Shown here: piece by piece, positions 22,605 through 31,682 of the stretch | Layout: each line of letters begins with the position of its first letter | Position numbering within the stretch: the first letter of the stretch is position 1 | Assembly: GCF_014651635.1 (NCBI RefSeq) | Contig: NZ_BMXG01000008.1 | Location: 78,607-142,606, forward strand | Direction: 5' to 3' | Origin: Cerasicoccus arenae | GTDB taxonomy: Bacteria > Verrucomicrobiota > Verrucomicrobiia > Opitutales > Cerasicoccaceae | DNA: 64,000 nt | Made by a program: the position numbers and the translations under genes | Notes under the pieces: model-generated | Told to the model about the DNA's origin: nothing | Database searches by the model: none | The model's input: the letters and a program-made list of their open reading frames with translations, nothing else

Positions 22605-23024
22605 ATGAACCTCCCCGCCCCACGCGACACACTCTTCGGCTGCATGTGGCTGCCGCGCATCCGCGCCAAAGCCCAGCAATATAAGACGGGCAAATTGCCT
22701 GAAATATACGCCCGTCCGTTTTGCATCCCACCAGCTGTCGATGGTCAGTTCCTCGCGCACTTTCAGCTCGATAAAGACGCCATCCTCGACGCCTGCGATC
22801 TGCCCGACGCCGACTTCGAGGCTTGGTTCCGCGCCCTCCCCAACAACAGCGACGCCCATATCGCCAAGTGGAACGAAATCGCAGTCAACCTCGGACGCCC
22901 AGGCTACCCAATGGCCGAGCGACTCCCTTGGGCCATAAGCGAGTACTACCAGCACATCGCTCACCTCAACCCACAAACCGTCTTTGCGACGCTTGAAGCT
23001 GACGAAGGAATCGCGCACTCATGA
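22605..23024 (+). CDS. DUF5069 domain protein
   Basis: A 139-residue soluble protein of unknown function. The segments LPAPRDTLFGCMWLPRIRAK, DGQFLAHFQLDKDAILDAC and FEAWF fit the DUF5069 family as I remember it, which is frequent in Verrucomicrobiota. Start ATG 22605 (MNLPAPRDT) follows an in-frame TTG at 22572 that would add non-conserved residues. Its stop overlaps the lipB start (ATGA), so it is translationally coupled to lipoate metabolism; whether that is functional is unknown. Confidence 0.75.
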   Translation: MNLPAPRDTLFGCMWLPRIRAKAQQYKTGKLPEIYARPFCIPPAVDGQFLAHFQLDKDAILDACDLPDADFEAWFRALPNNSDAHIAKWNEIAVNLGRPGYPMAERLPWAISEYYQHIAHLNPQTVFATLEADEGIAHS

Positions 23025-23671
23025 CCATTGCCCTCCAAGATTGGGGACGCACGCGTTATCGTGAAGCCTATGACAAACAGCTCACGCTCGTTCAGCAGCG
23101 ACGAGACAATCTTATTGGCGATACATTGGTCTTCACCGAGCATGAACCCGTCTATACCATTGGCCGACGCCGCGATGCCCGCCAAAATCTACTCCTCGAC
23201 GCGCAGGCCCTTGCCGAACGCGGCATTGACCTAGTCGAAACCACCCGCGGCGGCGACATTACTTACCACGGCCCAGGCCAACTCGTCGGCTACGCAATTA
23301 TTTCGCTTGATCACCGTCGTGACCTTCATCAATTCCTCCGTGACATCGAGCAAGCCCTGATCAACGCCCTCGGCACGCTCGGCTTGGCGGCAGATCGGCG
23401 TAAGGGCCTCACTGGCATCTGGCTGGAGCAGCGCAAAATTGCCGCCATCGGCATCGCTGTGTCCCGTTGGGTTAGCTACCACGGCTTCGCGCTCAACGTG
23501 GATCCCAACTTAGCAGATTTCGGCGGTATCATTCCGTGCGGCATCACCTCCACCGAGGGCAGCGTCACGAGTCTCTCTGCCGAGCTAAACGACCTCTATC
23601 CATCCATGAACGAGGTCAAGTCCGTCGTCTTCGCCGAGTTCAAAAAGACCTTCGTCGAAGTTTCAGATTAA
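23021..23671 (+). CDS. lipB: Octanoyl-[ACP]:protein N-octanoyltransferase
   Basis: A 216-residue enzyme that moves octanoate from acyl carrier protein to the lipoyl domains of 2-oxoacid dehydrogenases and GcvH. It shows FTEHEPVYTIGRR, TTRGGDITYHGPGQLVGY, the catalytic lysine in QRKIAAIGIAV, and the acyl-thioester cysteine in GGIIPCGIT. Length and motifs are normal. LipA is not adjacent in this window. Confidence 0.96.
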   Translation: MTIALQDWGRTRYREAYDKQLTLVQQRRDNLIGDTLVFTEHEPVYTIGRRRDARQNLLLDAQALAERGIDLVETTRGGDITYHGPGQLVGYAIISLDHRRDLHQFLRDIEQALINALGTLGLAADRRKGLTGIWLEQRKIAAIGIAVSRWVSYHGFALNVDPNLADFGGIIPCGITSTEGSVTSLSAELNDLYPSMNEVKSVVFAEFKKTFVEVSD

Positions 23672-23872: not shown

Positions 23873-24253
23873 GTGCATTTAAAGCATTGGATACTGGCAT
23901 TCATGTTCACTTTCGCCGTTCTTGCAGGCGAAGGCATGAGCGTATGCATGGCTAGTACATCCTGCGAAGTAACGGTCTCCTTGGCCAATCATAGAGGCTG
24001 TTGCAATCAGCCCCCCCCCATAGAGGCCAGCGAATGCTGCGTTAAAATCGAGCAATCGCTTCCAGATGCTTTACCATCTGTTTCGATTACGAATATTTCG
24101 CAGAACAATGTGTATGTTTACTTGGCACCTTGCCAATGGCTGGGAATGCATAGGCCTGTTTTCCGCAATTTAGTTGTAGCTCGACCACCGCCTAAAATCA
24201 AAGTCAAGTCAGTCGGGACGGCTCCGCCAATGAGACAAGTATGGCTCTTGTGA
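23873..24253 (+). CDS. Small secreted cysteine-rich protein upstream of the ABC export genes
   Basis: A 126-residue protein with an N-terminal hydrophobic export segment (HWILAFMFTFAVLAGEGMSV) and eight cysteines, including two Cys-Cys pairs (RGCCNQPPP and SECCVKIE). A conserved-looking LPDALPS and a basic proline-rich tail follow. No enzyme family is recognised; the spacing suggests metal binding or disulfide bonds in the periplasm. It lies 95 nt ahead of the HlyD-type adaptor on the same strand, so it probably belongs to that export system. The start is GTG 23873; ATG 23868 hits a stop after four codons. Three CCC codons form a C9 tract at 24011-24019. Confidence 0.6.
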   Translation: MHLKHWILAFMFTFAVLAGEGMSVCMASTSCEVTVSLANHRGCCNQPPPIEASECCVKIEQSLPDALPSVSITNISQNNVYVYLAPCQWLGMHRPVFRNLVVARPPPKIKVKSVGTAPPMRQVWLL

Positions 24254-24348
24254 TTCGATAACGTAAAACCGCGCAGCACCCTCTGCAGTTTTTTACATGC
24301 CCAGTTCCAAGCAGATCGGGCACTACTATCGAATCAAAACAACAGAGC

Positions 24349-25797
24349 ATGTCACTCAATACATTGGCTTCAACTCAAGGTCCGGACGATTCCGAGCCTC
24401 CAAAATCATCACCTGCAAGTGTGCATCGAGATCGCCTACTGGCCTGGCTTCCCTTGTACATCATACTCGCCTTTCTAGGTTTGGGCTGGATTCTATTTGG
24501 CGAGCTCATCACACCGGCACGCTCCGTGCAAATCGTTACAGTAGTAACGCAAGCGGCAGAGCAAACCACTGGCACCGATGCGTATTCATCCACAACGTCC
24601 GATGCCTCCGCAGATCCTTACGCGGGCGAACGTCTGTTCCAAGCTTCCGGTTGGATTGAGGCAGCCCCATTACCAACCCGTGCAACCGCTTTGTTAGATG
24701 GTATCGTCGACGAGGTCTTCGTGCTTGAGGGGGATCGTGTCAGCAAAGATCAACTACTGGCCACACTGATATCCGAGGACGCTGAAATTGAATTACTGGA
24801 GGCTCAAGCCCTTCTAGCCGAAGCAGAGGCAGACGTGAAACGTGAAAATGCCCTGTTGGGTCAGTCGAAAGCAGAACTCAATACCCACTCGCTTGAAGTT
24901 GCAGCCTCAGAGGCGAAGCTCAAGGAGTTACGGGATGACGAACAGAGGTTTCTGCAGGCAGGCAAACAGGCATTCTCAGCCCGGGATATTGATCACGCCA
25001 CCTTGCGAGTTCAAACTCGCGAGGCAGAAATCGTAGCACTTGAAGCACAACAATCGGAATTATCCACAGAAGTAGAAGCGCAAGCACTTGCAGTAGAAAC
25101 AGCTAAACATCGCGTTAAAGCAGCACAGGCGGCACTTCAGCGTGCCGAGTTGGACTGTAGCCGTACGGAAATCCGTAGTCCAATAGATGGTGTGGTTCAG
25201 AAATTATTCGTGGCTCCAGGACAAAAGCGCCTCATCGGTATGGATGACCCCGAATCGGCAACCATCGCCATCCTTTATCAACCCGAACACCTGCAAGCGC
25301 GAATCGATGTCCCGTTGGATAAAGCCGCGCTGTTGTCTTTAAATCAGCCAGTTATTCTCAGAAGCAATCTGCTGCCCAACCGCGAGTTTCAAGGGGTTCT
25401 GACCCGTATTGCAGGCATGGCAGATATCCAGCGCAATACCCTCCAAACCAAAGTTGCGATACACAACCCCGACCCGCTGCTGCGACCCGACATGCTTTGC
25501 CGTACGGAATTTTTGTCTATTCCGCGTTCCGGCCAAAAACAAATCAACACTCGAAACGGGCCCATTATCCTCTTTGTTCCGGAGAATGCCTTAATGAATC
25601 GCAATGACATGGAGGCCGAAGTGTGGACGCTGGATTCCAACGGTGAAAATGCTCAAAAACGCACGGTACGTCTGGGCACAATAACGCGAGATAAATTCGT
25701 ACAAATCACAGAGGGCTTGAATCCTGGCGACCCTGTAATCCTGTCTGCACCGACCGACCTTGAGGCAGGTGAGCGCGTGAGAGTATCCAATCCCTAA
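24349..25797 (+). CDS. Membrane-fusion (HlyD/MacA-type) periplasmic adaptor
   Basis: A 482-residue adaptor with one N-terminal membrane helix (about 30-51). The split biotinyl-lipoyl domain is at about 98-142 (ASGWIEAAPLPTRATALLDG) and 283-302 (RSPIDGVVQKLFVAPGQKRL). A long Ala/Glu-rich coiled hairpin (about 145-275) sits between the halves, followed by a beta-barrel and membrane-proximal domain. It should link the inner-membrane ABC permeases to an outer-membrane channel or to a periplasmic substrate. It is followed after 11 nt by the ATPase gene. No outer-membrane TolC-type protein is encoded nearby. Confidence 0.88.
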   Translation: MSLNTLASTQGPDDSEPPKSSPASVHRDRLLAWLPLYIILAFLGLGWILFGELITPARSVQIVTVVTQAAEQTTGTDAYSSTTSDASADPYAGERLFQASGWIEAAPLPTRATALLDGIVDEVFVLEGDRVSKDQLLATLISEDAEIELLEAQALLAEAEADVKRENALLGQSKAELNTHSLEVAASEAKLKELRDDEQRFLQAGKQAFSARDIDHATLRVQTREAEIVALEAQQSELSTEVEAQALAVETAKHRVKAAQAALQRAELDCSRTEIRSPIDGVVQKLFVAPGQKRLIGMDDPESATIAILYQPEHLQARIDVPLDKAALLSLNQPVILRSNLLPNREFQGVLTRIAGMADIQRNTLQTKVAIHNPDPLLRPDMLCRTEFLSIPRSGQKQINTRNGPIILFVPENALMNRNDMEAEVWTLDSNGENAQKRTVRLGTITRDKFVQITEGLNPGDPVILSAPTDLEAGERVRVSNP

Positions 25798-25808
25798 TTA
25801 CAAATTCA

Positions 25809-26564
25809 ATGACAGTTTTCAATCCACCCACAAGCAGTGATCCACACGGGAAAGAGGTCTTCATTCGCTGCCGAAATGTGTCGAAATCCTATCGTAAAGG
25901 CAAAACAATCGTCACACCGCTAGAAGCTCTGGATCTGGATGTCGGGCGTGGAGAATTCCTCGCTCTAATGGGCCCCTCTGGGTCAGGTAAAACAACTCTG
26001 TTGAACCTCATCGCAGGCATAGACTCCCCTACAACTGGTGAACTGTGGGTGGATAAGCAGAATCTTGCTTCTCTTAAGCGTGGTCAACTGACCGCCTGGC
26101 GGGCCAAGCATTGCGGCTATATTTTCCAGCTTTACCATTTGGTTCCCATCTTGACGGCCTTTGAGAATGTGGAGCTTCCCCTCCTCCTTGATCGCTCTCT
26201 TTCGCGCAAAGAACGACATAGTAAAGTCGCCGCTGCGCTTGACCTAGTCGGCCTAGCCAATCGCGCTGATCATCGCCCAACCGAACTATCAGGAGGCCAA
26301 GAGCAGCGCGTCGCCATTGCGCGAGCTATTGTAACCAATCCCGGGCTGCTTGTGGCAGACGAGCCCACAGGCGACTTGGACCGAAAATCAGCGACCCAAG
26401 TTCTGGATTTGCTGCGCGAATTCTCATCGGAGTACCGGAAAACGATTGTCATGGTCACACATGACGCTGTCGCAGCCAATGCCGCCCAACGCACTCTGCA
26501 TCTGGAAAAGGGACAACTCGTCGAGCAGGTGCAAATAACTACGAGTGAACCAACTGAAGTCTAA
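25809..26564 (+). CDS. ABC transporter ATPase, LolD/MacB type
   Basis: A 251-residue cytoplasmic ATPase. Walker A is [12 protein letters not shown], the Q-loop [16 protein letters not shown], the signature [15 protein letters not shown], Walker [13 protein letters not shown] and the switch histidine MVTHDAVA. This subfamily (LolD, MacB-ATPase, FtsE) powers mechanotransmission by FtsX-like permeases rather than classical import. Two FtsX-like permease genes follow at once (4 nt and 6 nt spacing), so they form one complex with this ATPase. Confidence 0.93.
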
Positions 26565-26568
26565 TAGT

Positions 26569-27717
26569 ATGAAGTGGTTAGCTTTGCCAGGAATCTCTCT
26601 CAAGCAAATTACGCGCCATCGATTTCGTAGTGCGCTAACCGTTGCCGGGGTTGCCACAGGAATGTTCCTCTACACGGCAGTACAAACGATGCAACACTCT
26701 CTGGCCGCCGTAACGCAGTCCGGGGCCGATGACAACACGCTGATAGTCTATCGTGAAAACCGTTTTTGCCCGACCACATCCCGCTTACCCGAACACTATC
26801 TTTTAGACATTCAACGAATCGAAGGCGTCTCGGAAGTCATCCCCATACAGGTAGCCGTAAACAACTGCGGGGCCAGCCTAGATGTGATTACTTTTCGCGG
26901 CGTACCACCCGAAAGCTTGGCAGAGTATAACCCCGCTCTGACGGTTGCTGAAGGTTCTTTCGAACAATGGAGGGGCCGCACAGATGGCGCACTGGTCGGG
27001 GAAAACTTTGCACGTCGACGTGGTTTGTCTCCTGGAGACACCTTCGAGGCTGTCGGCGTCCGAGTGTATGTCGCGGGAATCGTGCATTCCCCCCTAACAC
27101 AGGATAATAACGTCGCCTACGTCCATCTATCCTTCCTGCAACAATCCTCTAGAGTCGGCTTGGGTGTCGTCACACAGTTTAACGTCCGCGTGGACAACCC
27201 CGAACTCCTGCATAGTGTGGCTCGCCGAATCGATGAGTTGTTCGCCTCCGATGCAGCCCCAACCAACACACGCCCCGAAAAAGCTTTTTTTGCCCAGACT
27301 GCCCGAGACTTAATTGAGATGATTGCCTTTACCCGTTGGCTTGGGCTTGGAGCCGTATTGGCAGTGCTTGGACTGGTGGCAAATGCACTTTTACTCGCCG
27401 CGAGAGGTCGTATCAAAGAAGGTGCGATCTTGCAAACACTGGGCTTTCCACGGATCGCAGTCGGCCTGATCATGATATGGGAGGGAGCAATTCTTGGACT
27501 TCTCGGCGGAATGGCTGGGTGCCTCAGCGCTGTCTGTTTTTTTCGCTTCAAGAGTTTTACGCTGGGGAACGAAGGACTAACCCTCGCGCTGGTACCCAAT
27601 TGGAATGTGACTGTGAGTGGTTTGGTTCTGGCGATCACGCTTGGCCTTATCGCTTCAGTATGGCCTGCCATCGTAGCTTCCACCAAGCCTGTTGTGAGTT
27701 CACTACGCCAAGGCTGA
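26569..27717 (+). CDS. ABC permease, FtsX/MacB family (first of two)
   Basis: A 382-residue permease with the FtsX layout: one N-terminal helix (FRSALTVAGVATGMFLYTAV), a large periplasmic domain (about 45-255) and three C-terminal helices starting at FTRWLGLGAVLAVLGLV. The periplasmic part carries RENRFCPTTSRLPEHYL with a lone cysteine and a second cysteine in VAVNNCGASLDV. It should form a heterodimer with the next permease. ATG 26569 follows the ATPase stop by 4 nt; an upstream GTG at 26545 would overlap it. Confidence 0.88.
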   Translation: MKWLALPGISLKQITRHRFRSALTVAGVATGMFLYTAVQTMQHSLAAVTQSGADDNTLIVYRENRFCPTTSRLPEHYLLDIQRIEGVSEVIPIQVAVNNCGASLDVITFRGVPPESLAEYNPALTVAEGSFEQWRGRTDGALVGENFARRRGLSPGDTFEAVGVRVYVAGIVHSPLTQDNNVAYVHLSFLQQSSRVGLGVVTQFNVRVDNPELLHSVARRIDELFASDAAPTNTRPEKAFFAQTARDLIEMIAFTRWLGLGAVLAVLGLVANALLLAARGRIKEGAILQTLGFPRIAVGLIMIWEGAILGLLGGMAGCLSAVCFFRFKSFTLGNEGLTLALVPNWNVTVSGLVLAITLGLIASVWPAIVASTKPVVSSLRQG

Positions 27718-27723
27718 TTCATT

Positions 27724-28872
27724 ATGTTACCCATTTCCTACGCAATTCGTAATCTCCTCCGTGACCCGGGGCGTCTCCTCCAGAAAGTTGGAGGCGCGGG
27801 TATTGTCGTCTTTCTCGTATTTGCTGCCGGAGCATTCAACCAAGGTATGCATCGCATTTTGAGTGCCAGCGGATCTCCGCAAAATGTAATTTTACTCGGG
27901 GCAGGTTCCGAAGAAAGTGTCGAGCGTAGCGAGGTCCCGATACAAGCGGAAACATTGGCTGCTGCTGGCATCCAAGACATCACCACCCGTCTGGGTGTGT
28001 CGGCAGTCTCCGGTGAAGTTCATTACATGGCTGAAGTCATATTTCCAACGGGCCATAAGGCACAGGCACTTCTGCGCGGCGTTACACCCACTGCGTTTGA
28101 AGTACACCGTTCCGTCCGAATCCTCAAAGGCAAATATCCCAAACCCGGTGAAGTACTGGTGGGCAAATTGGCCCACCATAATCTGGGAGTCTCAGCTGAG
28201 ATGTTGAGCCCCGGTCAAACGATCAAATTTGAAGGACAATCATTTACGGTCGCAGGCATTTTTACTGCTCCCGGCACCGTAATGGAGTCAGAGCTATGGT
28301 TTGATCGTAATGACCTCATGACCTTAACACAACGTGAGCAGCTATCCTGTGTAGTCGTCCGGCTGGAATCTCCAGAATCTTACGCCTCCGCCGACCTGTT
28401 CAGTAAACAACGCCTCGATTTGGAACTTTCGGCCATTCGCGAATCTGACTATTATGCAAAACTATCCGCTTTCTACGCCCCCATACGTACAATGACTTGG
28501 CTGACAGCTGCCTTGATAGCAGCCGGGGCTATTTTTGGAGGCTTGAATATGCAATACGCCGCTTTTGCTTCCCGCATTCGTGAGTTGGCTACTTTGCAAG
28601 CAATTGGCTATTCACGCCCAGCGATATATCTCTCCCTTGTCGAAGAAAGCCTACTCGCCACTTTACTGGGCACCTTACTGGCCGTGGCCATGGTGCTAAT
28701 TTTCCTTGAAGGCCAAACCCTAAACTTCTCCATGGGCGTCTTTCGACTCACCCTTTCGGGCGAAATTGCCCTAGCTGGGCTGCTCACAGGTCTACTGCTA
28801 GGTATCATCGGCTCTATCACTCCCGCAATCCGCTGTCTCGGAACTTCTCTCCCTTCTGCTTTACGATCTTGA
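27724..28872 (+). CDS. ABC permease, FtsX/MacB family (second of two)
   Basis: A 382-residue permease with the same topology as its neighbour: N-terminal helix GGAGIVVFLVFAAGAF, a periplasmic domain (about 45-240: NVILLGAGSEESVERSEVP, EVHRSVRILKGKYPKPGEVL) and three helices from about residue 255. The two permeases differ clearly in sequence, so they are diverged rather than recent duplicates. ATG 27724, 6 nt after its partner. Together with the ATPase and adaptor it should make a MacB-like tripartite inner-membrane machine. Confidence 0.88.
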   Translation: MLPISYAIRNLLRDPGRLLQKVGGAGIVVFLVFAAGAFNQGMHRILSASGSPQNVILLGAGSEESVERSEVPIQAETLAAAGIQDITTRLGVSAVSGEVHYMAEVIFPTGHKAQALLRGVTPTAFEVHRSVRILKGKYPKPGEVLVGKLAHHNLGVSAEMLSPGQTIKFEGQSFTVAGIFTAPGTVMESELWFDRNDLMTLTQREQLSCVVVRLESPESYASADLFSKQRLDLELSAIRESDYYAKLSAFYAPIRTMTWLTAALIAAGAIFGGLNMQYAAFASRIRELATLQAIGYSRPAIYLSLVEESLLATLLGTLLAVAMVLIFLEGQTLNFSMGVFRLTLSGEIALAGLLTGLLLGIIGSITPAIRCLGTSLPSALRS

Positions 28873-28889
28873 ACCCAACTATCGAACTT

Positions 28890-29447
28890 ATGATAACAAA
28901 AAATACATTATTCAACGTGACGACGTTTATTCTGGTCTCACTATTCTTAACGGCTTGTGGAAAGCAGGAGGAAAGCACGAATGCAGGTTTGCAAAATAAC
29001 GGGGCCGAGGAAACCGCGACATTAATTCGATTGGCCACAGTTCCAAGCTCAGCGATTAGTGTTGGGCAAGCACGTAAGACTGCCCATCCCGGCCAAAAAA
29101 TTGCTGTTAGTGGTCAAATAGGTGGTACGCGGAGCCCCATTGCCGAAGAGTACGCTTCCTTTGTCATCACCGATTCTGTCATTCTGTTCTGCAATGAAAT
29201 CGGTGATGAAGGTTGCGAAACACCTTGGGATGCCTGTTGTGAAGATGCCGACAAATTGGCAGAACATCGAGCCAGCGTGCTTTTCCTGAACGACAATGGA
29301 CAACCGCTGAATTTGAACATGAAACAACAGCCCGGCCTTTCAGAACTCGATTATGTCACCGTCACTGGCATTGTAGCTCCGGGATCGACGCCAGATAATT
29401 TAATTATCCACGCCAACGGACTTTATACAGAGCCAACTAAGCTGTAA
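28890..29447 (+). CDS. Cysteine-rich lipoprotein closing the ABC export operon
   Basis: A 185-residue lipoprotein with signal peptide and lipobox LFLTACG. The mature part holds AVSGQIGGTRSPIAEEYASF, then FCNEIGDEGCETPWDACCED, which contains four cysteines in a tight cluster, and VTVTGIVAPGSTPDNLIIHA. The repeated V-x-G-x-I/V strands suggest an OB-like fold. I recall similar TPWDxCC proteins beside MacB-like ABC genes in planctomycetes and verrucomicrobia, but they have no known function. ATG 28890 is preferred; a TTG at 28869 overlaps the permease stop. A metal-binding or redox role is inference. Confidence 0.7.
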   Translation: MITKNTLFNVTTFILVSLFLTACGKQEESTNAGLQNNGAEETATLIRLATVPSSAISVGQARKTAHPGQKIAVSGQIGGTRSPIAEEYASFVITDSVILFCNEIGDEGCETPWDACCEDADKLAEHRASVLFLNDNGQPLNLNMKQQPGLSELDYVTVTGIVAPGSTPDNLIIHANGLYTEPTKL

Positions 29448-29509: not shown

Positions 29510-29587
29510 TGGGGTGGAAGACGGGACTCGAACCCGCGACCCTCGGCACCACAAGCCGATGCTCTAACCAACTGAGCTACGTCCACC
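29510..29587 (-). tRNA. tRNA-His (GTG anticodon)
   Basis: On the minus strand the D stem GCTC/GAGC, anticodon stem TCGGC/GCCGA with loop TTGTGGT (anticodon GTG), T stem GCGGG/CCCGT and an encoded CCA all fold. The extra 5' G (position -1) opposite C73 marks histidine identity. The acceptor stem has one C-U mismatch at position 6:67. It is a single tRNA gene between the ABC export cluster and the glycan locus. Confidence 0.95.
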
Positions 29588-29783: not shown

Positions 29784-31061
29784 CTACTGTTTAGGATAGC
29801 CATCATAGCTCTCTGCTTCCGTGAGCATTTCGTCTAATTGTGCGCTACTGGCGTTTTTGAGATATTCTTTAAGCGGCAGTCGGTTATCACTCAAGTCCAC
29901 CACTCTCCCAGTTCGCTCGCCGATCCAAGTTTCCAGCGAATCAAGATAAAGATAGCCTTCATCCAGTGATGGCTCAATCGCGGTCCCTTCGTTAAAGTCA
30001 TTCCAAGTGACTACTTGGATAATCTCAGGGTTTCCTTCAAATGCCATATCGAATGTCTTTTTCAGAATTGAGTCGCCGTCACGAGGAGTAACCCGCGGGC
30101 CATGCCCCCACCCGTTTACGCCACTATCATCAAATCCAGGCGCAACCATGGTCATGAAGAACCCCAACCGATCAGCATCCACCAAATCACGTGAATACTC
30201 TGAAAAATCTTTAACGTAAGACTCATCAGGAGTCCACCAGACGTAGGCCCCCTCAATATCTGGGTGATACTCAGGATTCAAGTTTTGGCGGGCATAAGTG
30301 ACTGGTTGGCGCAATGCGCCAAAGATCTCATTCCATTCATCTGGCAGTATATTCTGTTTACCCAACTCCCCTTCACCCCAGAAATTAAATTGATAAATAA
30401 ACGGCTTTTTCCCGCGATGTAAATAAGCTGGGTGGTCTGCGTATTTTTCTAAGATGTAATTGAGATCATCCTTGGCTGAGTTAACGATATCGTTCCGATT
30501 TTTGGGATTTCGATATGGTGGCCAGTTAAGCTTTTCCTCATAGCAAATCGCGAGCTTGAGTCCCGCATTTTGGGCCTCTTCCAAGAGCATCGGAACGAGT
30601 TCGTCCGTATCGCTCCCCGGACCGTACCAAATAATAAATACGATATCAATGCCGGCAGCTTTCGCCGTTTGAAAATGATATCGGACGACCTCTTCATTAT
30701 CAGAGCTATAGGCTCCAATGAGCGGGTATTGGACAGCTGCAATATCGCGTCTCCGCTCGGAATCACGTATTTCAGGATCACGCTTAACCTCGCTGCCTGA
30801 CCATGCCCAATGAGACCACTTGGGATTCGACCGCTGACTACTATGCGGGTTATTAAACCAAGGCATGTAGTGCATTGCAATGAGCGGAGTTTCATTGCCA
30901 GGCTCCCAAATGCAAACCTGGTCTAATGAAGAACGCGAGGCGCTGTCTGGCATTGCGTAATCGTTGCCGTCAACAAGATCTTCTCTTCCACAACCTAACA
31001 GGCTCAGTGAAATTGAGCATACCAATAGGATGTGGGCGTTGATAGCCACATGATGAAACAT
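29784..31061 (-). CDS. GH99/GH71-like lipoprotein, putative endo-alpha-mannosidase family
   Basis: A 425-residue exported lipoprotein (signal peptide ending SLSLLGCG). The domain has AMHYMPWF, HWAWSG, YPLIGAYSSDNEEVVRYHF, AAGIDIVFIIWYGPGSD and a C-terminal VVTWNDFNEGTAIEPSLDEG, the pattern of GH99 and the related GH71/99-like proteins. In characterised GH99 enzymes two carboxylates lie in a NEWHEGT-type motif; here the first position is Asp (WNDFNEGT), so activity or specificity may differ. It likely sits on the cell surface or in the periplasm. Next to a beta-mannosidase and a GH31 enzyme, a mannan or glucosylated-mannan substrate is plausible. Confidence 0.7.
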   Translation of the reverse strand: MFHHVAINAHILLVCSISLSLLGCGREDLVDGNDYAMPDSASRSSLDQVCIWEPGNETPLIAMHYMPWFNNPHSSQRSNPKWSHWAWSGSEVKRDPEIRDSERRRDIAAVQYPLIGAYSSDNEEVVRYHFQTAKAAGIDIVFIIWYGPGSDTDELVPMLLEEAQNAGLKLAICYEEKLNWPPYRNPKNRNDIVNSAKDDLNYILEKYADHPAYLHRGKKPFIYQFNFWGEGELGKQNILPDEWNEIFGALRQPVTYARQNLNPEYHPDIEGAYVWWTPDESYVKDFSEYSRDLVDADRLGFFMTMVAPGFDDSGVNGWGHGPRVTPRDGDSILKKTFDMAFEGNPEIIQVVTWNDFNEGTAIEPSLDEGYLYLDSLETWIGERTGRVVDLSDNRLPLKEYLKNASSAQLDEMLTEAESYDGYPKQ

Positions 31062-31115: not shown

Positions 31116-31682
31116 TTAAGCGTGTAGCCGACGACGCCAGATTACGATGGCTCCCATCAGAAATCCACCAAAGAGTGCGTAGTGTGATGGCTCTGGAACT
31201 GCGGCAAATTCGCTAAATTCAAAGCCGCTGGCCGTCTCACCCTGCAAACGCACGCGCAATTGGTAGGTGGCCGCTGTCGGGAATCCTTCGGAAATTGCAA
31301 AATCAGCAATATTTGCCGAAGTGAAAGACGTGCTGTCGCTAAATCCGAAGAGTGTCCGTTCTGCTTGGAATACACCTCCGCCATCAAAGAATAAAATAAA
31401 GGCGCTCCATTGACCGTCTGTGATCGCCGCATTTGGGGTAATTTCCAAAACGCTCTGCGCATCACCGAAGTCCAAAGAAAAACGAGTCGTGCCATCGATC
31501 AACCAGTCCAAGCCTGCGTCGCCGACTGAATCGGTGCGGCTAAGGGTAAGGATATTACTACTGGTGGCAATGGACGCATTGCCAAAGACATTTAAATTGT
31601 TGGTGTTGGCAAAGTCGTCAGTAAACGGAGAGCCAAAGCTTACATGAGCGACTGCAAGTGCAGCAAGTAGGGTTATTTTCAT
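31116..31682 (-). CDS. PEP-CTERM sorting domain protein
   Basis: A 188-residue exported protein. It has an N-terminal signal peptide (MKITLLAALAVAHVSFGS), a beta-rich body (FSLDFGDAQSVLEITPNA, YQLRVRLQGETASGFEFSEF) resembling a small lectin/jelly-roll-like fold, and a C-terminal VPEPSHYALFGG, hydrophobic helix and RRR tail. That tail is the PEP-CTERM signal processed by exosortase, so the product goes to the surface or exopolysaccharide layer. The body is not a family I recognise. It lies between two glycan-degradation genes on the same strand and may bind the same glycan (inference). Confidence 0.85.
   Translation of the reverse strand: MKITLLAALAVAHVSFGSPFTDDFANTNNLNVFGNASIATSSNILTLSRTDSVGDAGLDWLIDGTTRFSLDFGDAQSVLEITPNAAITDGQWSAFILFFDGGGVFQAERTLFGFSDSTSFTSANIADFAISEGFPTAATYQLRVRLQGETASGFEFSEFAAVPEPSHYALFGGFLMGAIVIWRRRLHA

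Follow-up and report, generated by a model that had tools for sequence, protein, structure and literature searches.

The known substrates of type VII ATP-binding cassette (ABC) exporters are drugs, peptides, haem and lipoproteins, and the MacB-type pumps are thought to take a periplasmic substrate and push it through an adaptor and TolC. LolCDE is not known to have an HlyD adaptor, and HrtBA and CcmABCDE are known to have neither an adaptor nor a Cys motif of the kind described below; of these, CcmE, a periplasmic carrier with an oligonucleotide/oligosaccharide-binding (OB) fold, works together with an ABC transporter. Here we analyze a six-gene operon at positions 23873–29447 of a 64,000-nucleotide stretch of the Cerasicoccus arenae genome (contig NZ_BMXG01000008.1; hereafter, the window), encoding a Cys-rich secreted leader protein, an HlyD/MacA-type adaptor, a LolD/MacB-type ATPase, two different permeases (A and B), and a Cys-rich lipoprotein. 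The operon is a conserved variant of the type VII ABC exporters, of which a description was found nowhere in the literature searched, and we consider it rather probable that it encodes a tripartite exporter for soft, thiol-seeking metals or metalloids, fed by the OB-fold lipoprotein. The strongest result is that an invariant Cys of permease A is met, in 20 relatives, by an in-frame TGA codon at the same or the adjoining column; the member in the window is the all-Cys form.

Gene content of the operon

A preliminary description of this locus had outlined a same-strand run of six genes with two Cys-rich partners, and all six open reading frames (ORFs) are present as it placed them, on the plus strand and almost contiguous, forming one operon. 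The leader protein (CysSec, 23873–24253, 126 residues, GTG start) contains seven Cys, a PPP sequence close to its C-terminus and a tail ending in MRQVWLL. It is followed by the periplasmic adaptor (24349–25797, 482 residues; HlyD_D23 at 2e-16 and RND_mfp at 4.5e-41, over the cut-off) and the ATPase (25809–26564, 251 residues; ABC_tran at 2e-35), which carries the Walker A sequence GPSGSGKT and the signature LSGGQEQR, and whose best NCBIfam match is LolD (230 bits, under the cut-off of 308). Permease A (26545–27717, 390 residues; MacB_PCD at 7.6e-15 and FtsX at 1e-7), read from a GTG codon, overlaps the ATPase gene by 20 bp, with an internal ATG further downstream, and permease B (27724–28872, 382 residues; MacB_PCD at 5e-13 and FtsX at 4.5e-10) lies next to it; both exceed the Pfam cut-offs for MacB_PCD and FtsX and thus belong to the type VII (MacB/FtsX) fold. 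The last gene encodes the lipoprotein (28890–29447, 185 residues, ATG start; a TTG start at 28869 is less likely), with the motif C101-x7-C109-ETPWDA-C116-C117. Neither the leader nor the lipoprotein has a credible family in Pfam or NCBIfam, and the lipoprotein sequence has no credible relative among solved structures.

An ordinary MacAB was rejected because the ATPase and the permeases are unfused, and an ordinary LolCDE because an HlyD gene stands in the operon and the permease falls below the LolCE cut-off. The unfused genes, the adaptor and the scores below the LolCE and LolD cut-offs thus agree with the further proposal of the preliminary description, namely, an export system that is neither of the two.

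In-frame TGA codons at or beside the invariant cysteines of permease A

Two Cys residues of permease A, C75 (in RFCPTTSRLP) and C108 (in NNCGASLD), both within the Pfam MacB_PCD match, that is, the periplasmic core domain, are Cys in 97 of 97 sequences, comprising the window member and 96 others (92 distinct) picked by overall similarity; a scan of conserved residues revealed no comparable Cys pair in permease B. The nearest solved folds of the AlphaFold2 model of permease A (predicted local distance difference test, pLDDT, 89.5) are Spr0695, LolE, MacB and HrtB, with a predicted similarity to 5xu1 of Z 23.6 at a root-mean-square deviation (rmsd) of 7.7 over 348 residues.

Two distant relatives of permease A (L232 and L233) have one in-frame TGA each, located exactly at C75. 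When the L232 permease was searched against 294 Planctomycetota genomes, 95 of them gave a match, and one or two TGAs were contained in 18 of the matches. When aligned to the window protein, 31 permease A TGAs from 20 loci fall on column 75 (18 cases), column 108 (4) and column 109 (9), and none elsewhere; column 109 is the residue directly after C108, and a Cys column is therefore hit in 22 of the 31 cases. The lipoprotein genes contribute three further TGAs, all on motif Cys residues (C117 in L295; C101 and C116 in L300). Matches to the other core genes contain TGAs only within the first or last three residues, as would be expected of stop codons or of an upstream extension.

The genomes concerned mostly carry the machinery for selenocysteine (Sec) insertion. 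SelB scores over its cut-off in 19 of the 20 TGA-bearing genomes versus 9 of 27 comparison genomes (17 of 18 versus 9 of 20 in planctomycetes, Fisher p 0.0012; two of two versus none of seven in Verrucomicrobiota), and tRNA-Sec is found at E <= 1e-11 in 17 of the 20. In the two TGA-bearing Verrucomicrobiota genomes, tRNA-Sec reaches 72 and 82 bits, compared with at most 52 bits in the seven others, three of which pass the cut-off of 47. For the bacterial Sec insertion sequence, folding was compared by group: the RNA following the UGA folds better (mean z −1.55, n = 17) than that following the corresponding Cys codon of homologous genes (mean z −0.01, n = 65; p 2e-4 by a Mann-Whitney test).

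From these codon positions and the accompanying machinery, we read the TGAs as a natural exchange of Cys and Sec at working residues. That they are instead sequencing errors, pseudogenes or a reassigned codon is a very remote prospect, the least probable of the alternatives considered here: many of the TGA loci do lie in small contigs, and genome G420 (L300), with TGAs in both permease A and the lipoprotein, has no detected SelB or tRNA-Sec, but errors or decay would hardly place 31 of 31 permease A and three of three lipoprotein TGAs on Cys sites or on the residue beside C108, and TGAs at the match ends in the same loci look like ordinary stops. The presence of SelB in all the other TGA-bearing genomes and the hairpins following the UGA, taken as a group, also disfavor it. 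None of the NCBIfam selenoprotein families matches the two TGA-bearing permeases that were tried. The text available to us of a 2026 review of prokaryotic selenoproteins (PMC13188914) has no occurrence of FtsX, MacB or LolC. More widely, in the accessible literature, including the available text of PMC8277102, PMC5985334, PMC7343977, PMC13188914 and PMC4807772, neither this pump system nor a Sec-containing permease of the MacB/LolCE type is described.

The four-Cys motif and predicted OB fold of the lipoprotein

The lipoprotein motif has the general form C-x(n)-C-x2-PWD-x-CC, with a few one-letter departures. Two alignments, of 33 and 72 sequences, show no variation at C101, C109, W113, D114, C116 and C117, partly by construction, as the rows were picked with the motif pattern. 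Because these rows and the scan of named genomes (see below) both used the motif, we rely for its conservation on the places found by overall similarity, where it is present in all 32 ABC-linked places of Verrucomicrobiota (the window included) and in all 36 of Planctomycetota. ABC genes adjoin 36 of 38 motif-bearing versus none of two motif-less lipoproteins in Planctomycetota, and 32 of 33 versus none of ten in Verrucomicrobiota, although a Fisher value for this association overstates independence, since the ten motif-less proteins come from one genus. A lipobox is missing in two of 32 motif-bearing members. The AlphaFold2 model (pLDDT 87) is predicted to adopt an OB fold, the top matches in the fold search being OB-fold proteins (4gn4, Z 9.5, rmsd 3.1 over 101 residues); tRNA synthetases and MCM proteins also matched, through nothing more than the OB fold that they share, and were set aside. 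The CC pair of the motif together with its W-D looks like a ligand cluster.

In their folds, the adaptor, the ATPase and the permeases match MacAB, and the characterized relatives of MacB mostly export drugs and peptides in the text available of PMC5985334. It might accordingly be asked whether the operon encodes an ordinary MacAB-like drug or peptide exporter with the Cys-rich genes as mere accessories. We regard this as improbable, as the strict Cys pair of permease A, the apparent Sec forms and the co-occurrence with a four-Cys lipoprotein have no evident reason in a drug pump.

Several other lipoproteins of this kind were observed. The ten motif-less species just mentioned (L060–L063, L065–L068, L071 and L072; genomes of 2.7–3.3 Mb) have a stand-alone OB lipoprotein, the four-Cys motif and an adjoining pump being absent together. 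Two OB lipoprotein paralogues (L207:7980-9127 and L217:7842-8489) have CPFC instead of the four-Cys motif, and the gene directly upstream of that in L207 encodes a His/Asp-rich, lipoprotein-like protein. In L069 (3362-6624), a second motif-bearing copy stands beside a multicopper oxidase of the copper-resistance type (401 bits, cut-off 479), upstream of which is a Cys-rich secreted ORF ending in SSTLLI. Two tandem lipoprotein matches within one open frame of 333 residues (G559:C6:40188-41048, L194) may represent a fused double OB protein.

Spread and gene order in Verrucomicrobiota and Planctomycetota

A lipoprotein search of 288 Verrucomicrobiota genomes gave 44 places in 43 genomes, of which 43 places were examined (the window and 42 of the 43 others; G082 was left out). 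The order HlyD-ATPase-permease A-permease B-lipoprotein is kept in 32 of them, the remaining 11 being the ten species of one genus (g29) with the motif-less stand-alone lipoprotein, and L069. Permease A is matched at E <= 1e-140 in 32 of the 288 genomes, and these are the same 32 that carry the motif-bearing lipoprotein; five further genomes have weaker permease A matches (1e-88 to 1e-44) and no lipoprotein match. In the motif-based scan of named genomes, the best 80 of 338 relatives were kept; they belong to Verrucomicrobiota and Planctomycetota, with a few records labeled otherwise or as 'bacterium' (labels as recorded, e.g., Pseudomonadales for L120 and Emcibacter for L132). ABC genes stand beside the lipoprotein in 78 of these best 80, and in the other two the contig ends less than 1.2 kb from the match. 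With the order kept in 32 of 43 Verrucomicrobiota places and the ABC genes in 78 of the best 80 relatives, the arrangement is not a matter of chance.

In Planctomycetota, the lipoprotein occurs in 89 of 294 genomes. Forty places were fetched (39 chosen from 93 and one from another search), and the permeases adjoin the lipoprotein in 36 of them, in accordance with the mention, in the preliminary description, of similar sets in planctomycetes. The co-occurrence across both phyla that it had suggested examining is seen, with close permease A homologs and the four-Cys lipoprotein coinciding in the same 32 Verrucomicrobiota genomes. Two gene orders are found, HlyD-ATPase-A-B-lipoprotein and B-lipoprotein-HlyD-ATPase-A. 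L225 first seemed to be pump-less; its genome (G454) has a same-strand permease A match about 12 kb away with a CusA/CzcA gene in between, and the permease A match of L191 (G330) is on another contig. A mobile or plasmid-borne resistance island is unsupported: no plasmid record matches the lipoprotein, and a single distant permease A match was found among plasmid records (Gemmatirosa, 1.04 Mb, 28%).

The Cys-rich leader

Of 89 callable loci, 80 have a secreted ORF with at least four Cys whose end lies just ahead of the first pump gene (82 by script minus L121 and L126, which encode heavy-metal-associated (HMA) proteins; 16 more loci are cut by contig ends). With at least six Cys required, the count is 81 of 89 loci, whereas the filter passes 43 of 683 other genes, and about a third of those 43 are the lipoprotein itself, upstream of the next gene. 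The leader was found in 20 of 35 loci of the planctomycete sample (a contig end truncates one of the 15 others), and its presence follows the gene order (12 of 13 B-first and 8 of 22 HlyD-first loci). The leader is therefore common, not universal, and a weaker part of the conserved set than the lipoprotein. The preliminary description had made its case depend on both Cys-rich genes being conserved next to the ABC genes; this holds strictly for the lipoprotein, and for the leader in most loci but not in all.

Small secreted Cys/His-rich ORFs also occur about 1.5–3.2 kb upstream of CusA in 19 of 20 CusA/CzcA loci (one of the 20 is from Planctomycetota, the others are from Verrucomicrobiota; the ORFs were picked by eye). 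The window genome itself has such an ORF (L238:4213-4644, contig C15), with the tail RGPP..VLRL, which heads an operon of the CusA/CzcA type. A profile of the C-terminal tail of the pump leaders, which scores above 6 for 55 of 79 training leaders when each is left out in turn, exceeds this value in 4 of the 19 CusA/CzcA leaders picked by eye versus 1 of 230 control ORFs, and gives 4.7 for the protein of the window genome. These similarities are suggestive of homology between the pump leader and the small proteins heading CusA/CzcA loci; the two are too divergent to be claimed as one family.

Genes adjoining the pump

Among the neighborhoods of 92 loci, the commonest foreign cluster is a TolC-family channel (18 loci, some belonging to resistance-nodulation-division (RND) operons), followed by two clusters of the Cys-rich leaders, CusA/CzcA (7) and CzcB-type adaptors (7). 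In 13 of the 92 loci, the pump cluster has a TolC-family gene on its own strand at a distance of no more than 400 bp; of the members checked, L136 was identified by Pfam and L120 by NCBIfam, below the cut-off. These channel genes, together with the adaptor, bear on a further explanation, in which the pump is a LolCDE-like sorting paralogue dedicated to its own Cys-rich lipoprotein. Although the closest NCBIfam families are LolD for the ATPase and LolC/E for permease A, LolE is among the closest folds of permease A, and the operon does encode a lipoprotein, an HlyD adaptor, which LolCDE is not known to have, is encoded here, and a TolC-family gene adjoins those 13 loci. Moreover, the window genome encodes better LolC/E-like proteins elsewhere (246 and 140 bits versus 50, none over the cut-off), two of the 32 motif-bearing lipoproteins lack a lipobox, and the sister systems show no lipoprotein. 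We therefore hold this explanation to be highly improbable.

Genes for metal handling recur around part of the loci. CusA/CzcA genes lie within 16 kb of at least nine loci versus 2.05 expected (p 3e-4), and within 10 kb of at least six versus 1.35 expected (p 0.003), as counted by eye among the matches listed, with the expectation taken from the density in 69 genomes and from rounded genome sizes. Most readable ones among these neighboring RND proteins share the motif ..VDDAIVDVEN.., which gave no metal class. A secreted HMA protein adjoins permease B in L128 (Pfam, 2e-7) and likewise in L121 and L126, a heavy-metal ATPase follows permease A in L152, and an ArsP-like permease stands between permease B and the lipoprotein in four loci (L145 by Pfam, with SaoE at 99 bits and SO_0444 at 76 bits, both under the cut-off; L088, L103 and L106 alike by eye). 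Regulators of the ArsR/SmtB type, over the cut-off and with a CVCD motif, overlap the HlyD start in L196 and lie 1.4 kb upstream in L220, and a divergent ArsR-like gene is located 284 bp from L106. MerR-type genes adjoin the pump in L286 (9350-9763; below equivalog cut-offs) and likewise in L287 (234-674); in these two related genomes, they lie at opposite ends of the TGA-bearing operon, and the regulators that they encode have Cys at MerR-like positions.

In the window, a lipoyl-ligase/transferase-type gene upstream (23021–23671) and tRNA-His downstream (29510–29586, opposite strand) were not counted as members of the operon. Further downstream are a lipoprotein-like glycoside hydrolase (29784–31061, minus strand; GH99 and GH71 over the cut-off) and, adjoining it, a gene (31116–31682) whose product has a C-terminus that looks PEP-CTERM-like. 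Elsewhere, overlapping ORFs in L235 (14960-17040) with FPTPVGMV, PHARGDGP and SPRPWGWS repeats look like the read-through of a CRISPR array.

Proposed mechanism and alternatives

Given that permease A has thiols in its periplasmic domain and is accompanied by two Cys-rich partners, the simplest scheme is the hand-over and expulsion of a soft metal. The leader and the OB-fold lipoprotein would act as periplasmic metal binders and deliver their metal to C75 and C108, the pair of thiols in the permease A core domain. Permeases A and B would form a heterodimer driven by a dimer of the LolD-like ATPase, and the ATP-driven movement of the core domain would expel the metal through the HlyD adaptor, which would join the pump to a TolC-type outer-membrane channel, whose gene adjoins the pump in part of the relatives and presumably stands elsewhere in the rest. 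In some relatives, Sec may take the place of Cys in permease A and in the lipoprotein. The delivery of Cu(I) by CusF to CusBA is a functional parallel to the proposed hand-over. The substrate would be of the class of Cu(I)/Ag(I), As(III) or Hg(II), its identity being the weakest point of the scheme. In its most specific form, the proposal is that of a hitherto undescribed family of metal(loid) exporters that run on ATP: an OB-fold, four-thiolate lipoprotein would supply the metal to a permease of the MacB type, whose periplasmic domain would receive it at a site made of two thiols, a thiol and a selenol, or two selenols. We consider the proposal in this form to stand at about even chances.

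The main rival is a redox or thiol-compound exporter, in which C75/C108 and the lipoprotein motif would form redox-active or mixed disulfides with the expelled substrate, such as a low-molecular-weight thiol, a persulfide or a disulfide-bonded peptide. Invariant Cys and the exchange of Cys for Sec are common at redox-active sites of selenoproteins, according to the available text of PMC13188914, and the NCU sites would suit a selenenylsulfide. However, the telling neighbors, where present, are metal genes, with ArsR and MerR regulators adjoining some loci, no thiol-oxidoreductase or biosynthetic gene recurs among the neighbor clusters listed, and the CC pair and W-D of the lipoprotein have rather the look of ligands; we consider a redox exporter unlikely, though deserving of serious attention. 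The preliminary description had offered thiol compounds and disulfide-bonded peptides as substrates besides metals; of the three, the evidence favors a soft metal or metalloid, with a thiol compound as a less probable alternative.

Several observations weigh against the metal exporter. Sec and invariant Cys suit redox chemistry as well as metal ligation. No TolC gene, metal gene or metal-responsive regulator stands beside the operon in the window, and most loci are without metal neighbors: CusA/CzcA appears in only seven of 92 neighborhoods and its enrichment was counted by eye on rounded genome sizes, ArsR-like genes occur in 8 of 162 loci with only L196 and L220 on the same strand just upstream, and MerR-type genes were found at two loci only. 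Scores under the curated cut-offs were obtained for the MerR and multicopper oxidase matches, for those to SaoE and SO_0444, and for part of those to CusA, and the neighbors point to several metals (Cu, As, Hg/Zn/Cd) rather than to a single one. Most TGA loci form a sister clade with no lipoprotein found beside the pump, only L295 and L300 having both. Besides the failure to detect SelB or tRNA-Sec in G420, tRNA-Sec separates planctomycetes only weakly (E <= 1e-11 in 15 of 18 versus 10 of 20), and the hairpins are uneven (z from +0.66 to −4.5, reaching −3 at 4 of 17, with three positive, two of them near or above +0.4). The motif-less lipoproteins of Verrucomicrobiota represent a single genus, and the leader is missing or undetected in 14 of the 22 HlyD-first planctomycete loci and is therefore not essential.

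The invariance of the permease A Cys pair, the conservation of the lipoprotein motif and the apparent Sec forms go beyond the preliminary description and are not visible in the window alone. The exchange of Cys and Sec pinpoints the working residues in advance of experiment, and the natural variants make both mechanism and substrate testable. If the scheme is correct, a soft-metal member of the type VII exporters would provide ATP-driven metal efflux from the periplasm to the outside, beside RND pumps and P-type ATPases, two selenoprotein families (permease A and the lipoprotein) would be added, and a likely function would be assigned to the lipoprotein and leader families, which have no Pfam or NCBIfam model. 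The pump would also be, to our knowledge, the first ABC exporter with a natural selenocysteine substrate site, and in some species the lipoprotein that serves it would be a selenoprotein as well.

Comparison with known transport systems

The proposed exporter is worth comparing with the systems that it partly resembles. It shares with MacAB-TolC the HlyD/MacA-type adaptor in the operon, the MacB_PCD and FtsX permease fold, and a TolC-family gene beside part of the loci, whereas MacB fuses ATPase and permease, which are here a separate ATPase and two unlike permease genes, accompanied by an invariant Cys pair, two Cys-rich partners and apparent Sec forms. LolCDE likewise has a separate LolD-like ATPase and two different FtsX-type permeases; the present operon differs in the HlyD adaptor, the Cys-rich leader and the OB lipoprotein with its Cys motif, and in scores (57 bits for the permease versus the LolCE cut-off of 362, the ATPase also being below the LolD cut-off). 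In CusCFBA, an adaptor and an outer-membrane channel are combined with a small β-barrel periplasmic partner, the OB-like CusF, and small Cys/His-rich leader genes also head the CusA/CzcA loci of these phyla; the pump there, however, is of the RND type, whereas here ATP would be used via an ABC transporter and the partner is a lipoprotein with a Cys motif. HrtB of HrtBA is a MacB-type permease for a metal compound, which permease A is predicted to resemble (Z 19.6, rmsd 7.0, 314 aligned), and CcmE of CcmABCDE resembles the modeled lipoprotein (Z 8.7, rmsd 2.5, 87 aligned), but both systems handle haem rather than a thiol-bound metal. Finally, SaoP/SaoB/SaoX and the SO_0444 Cu/Zn efflux proteins are, in the available text of PMC13188914, transport proteins with predicted Sec and a link to heavy metals, as would be the case here; they differ from the exporter proposed here in being listed there either as subunits of a transporter, for substrate binding or as permease, or as an efflux permease consisting of a single protein.

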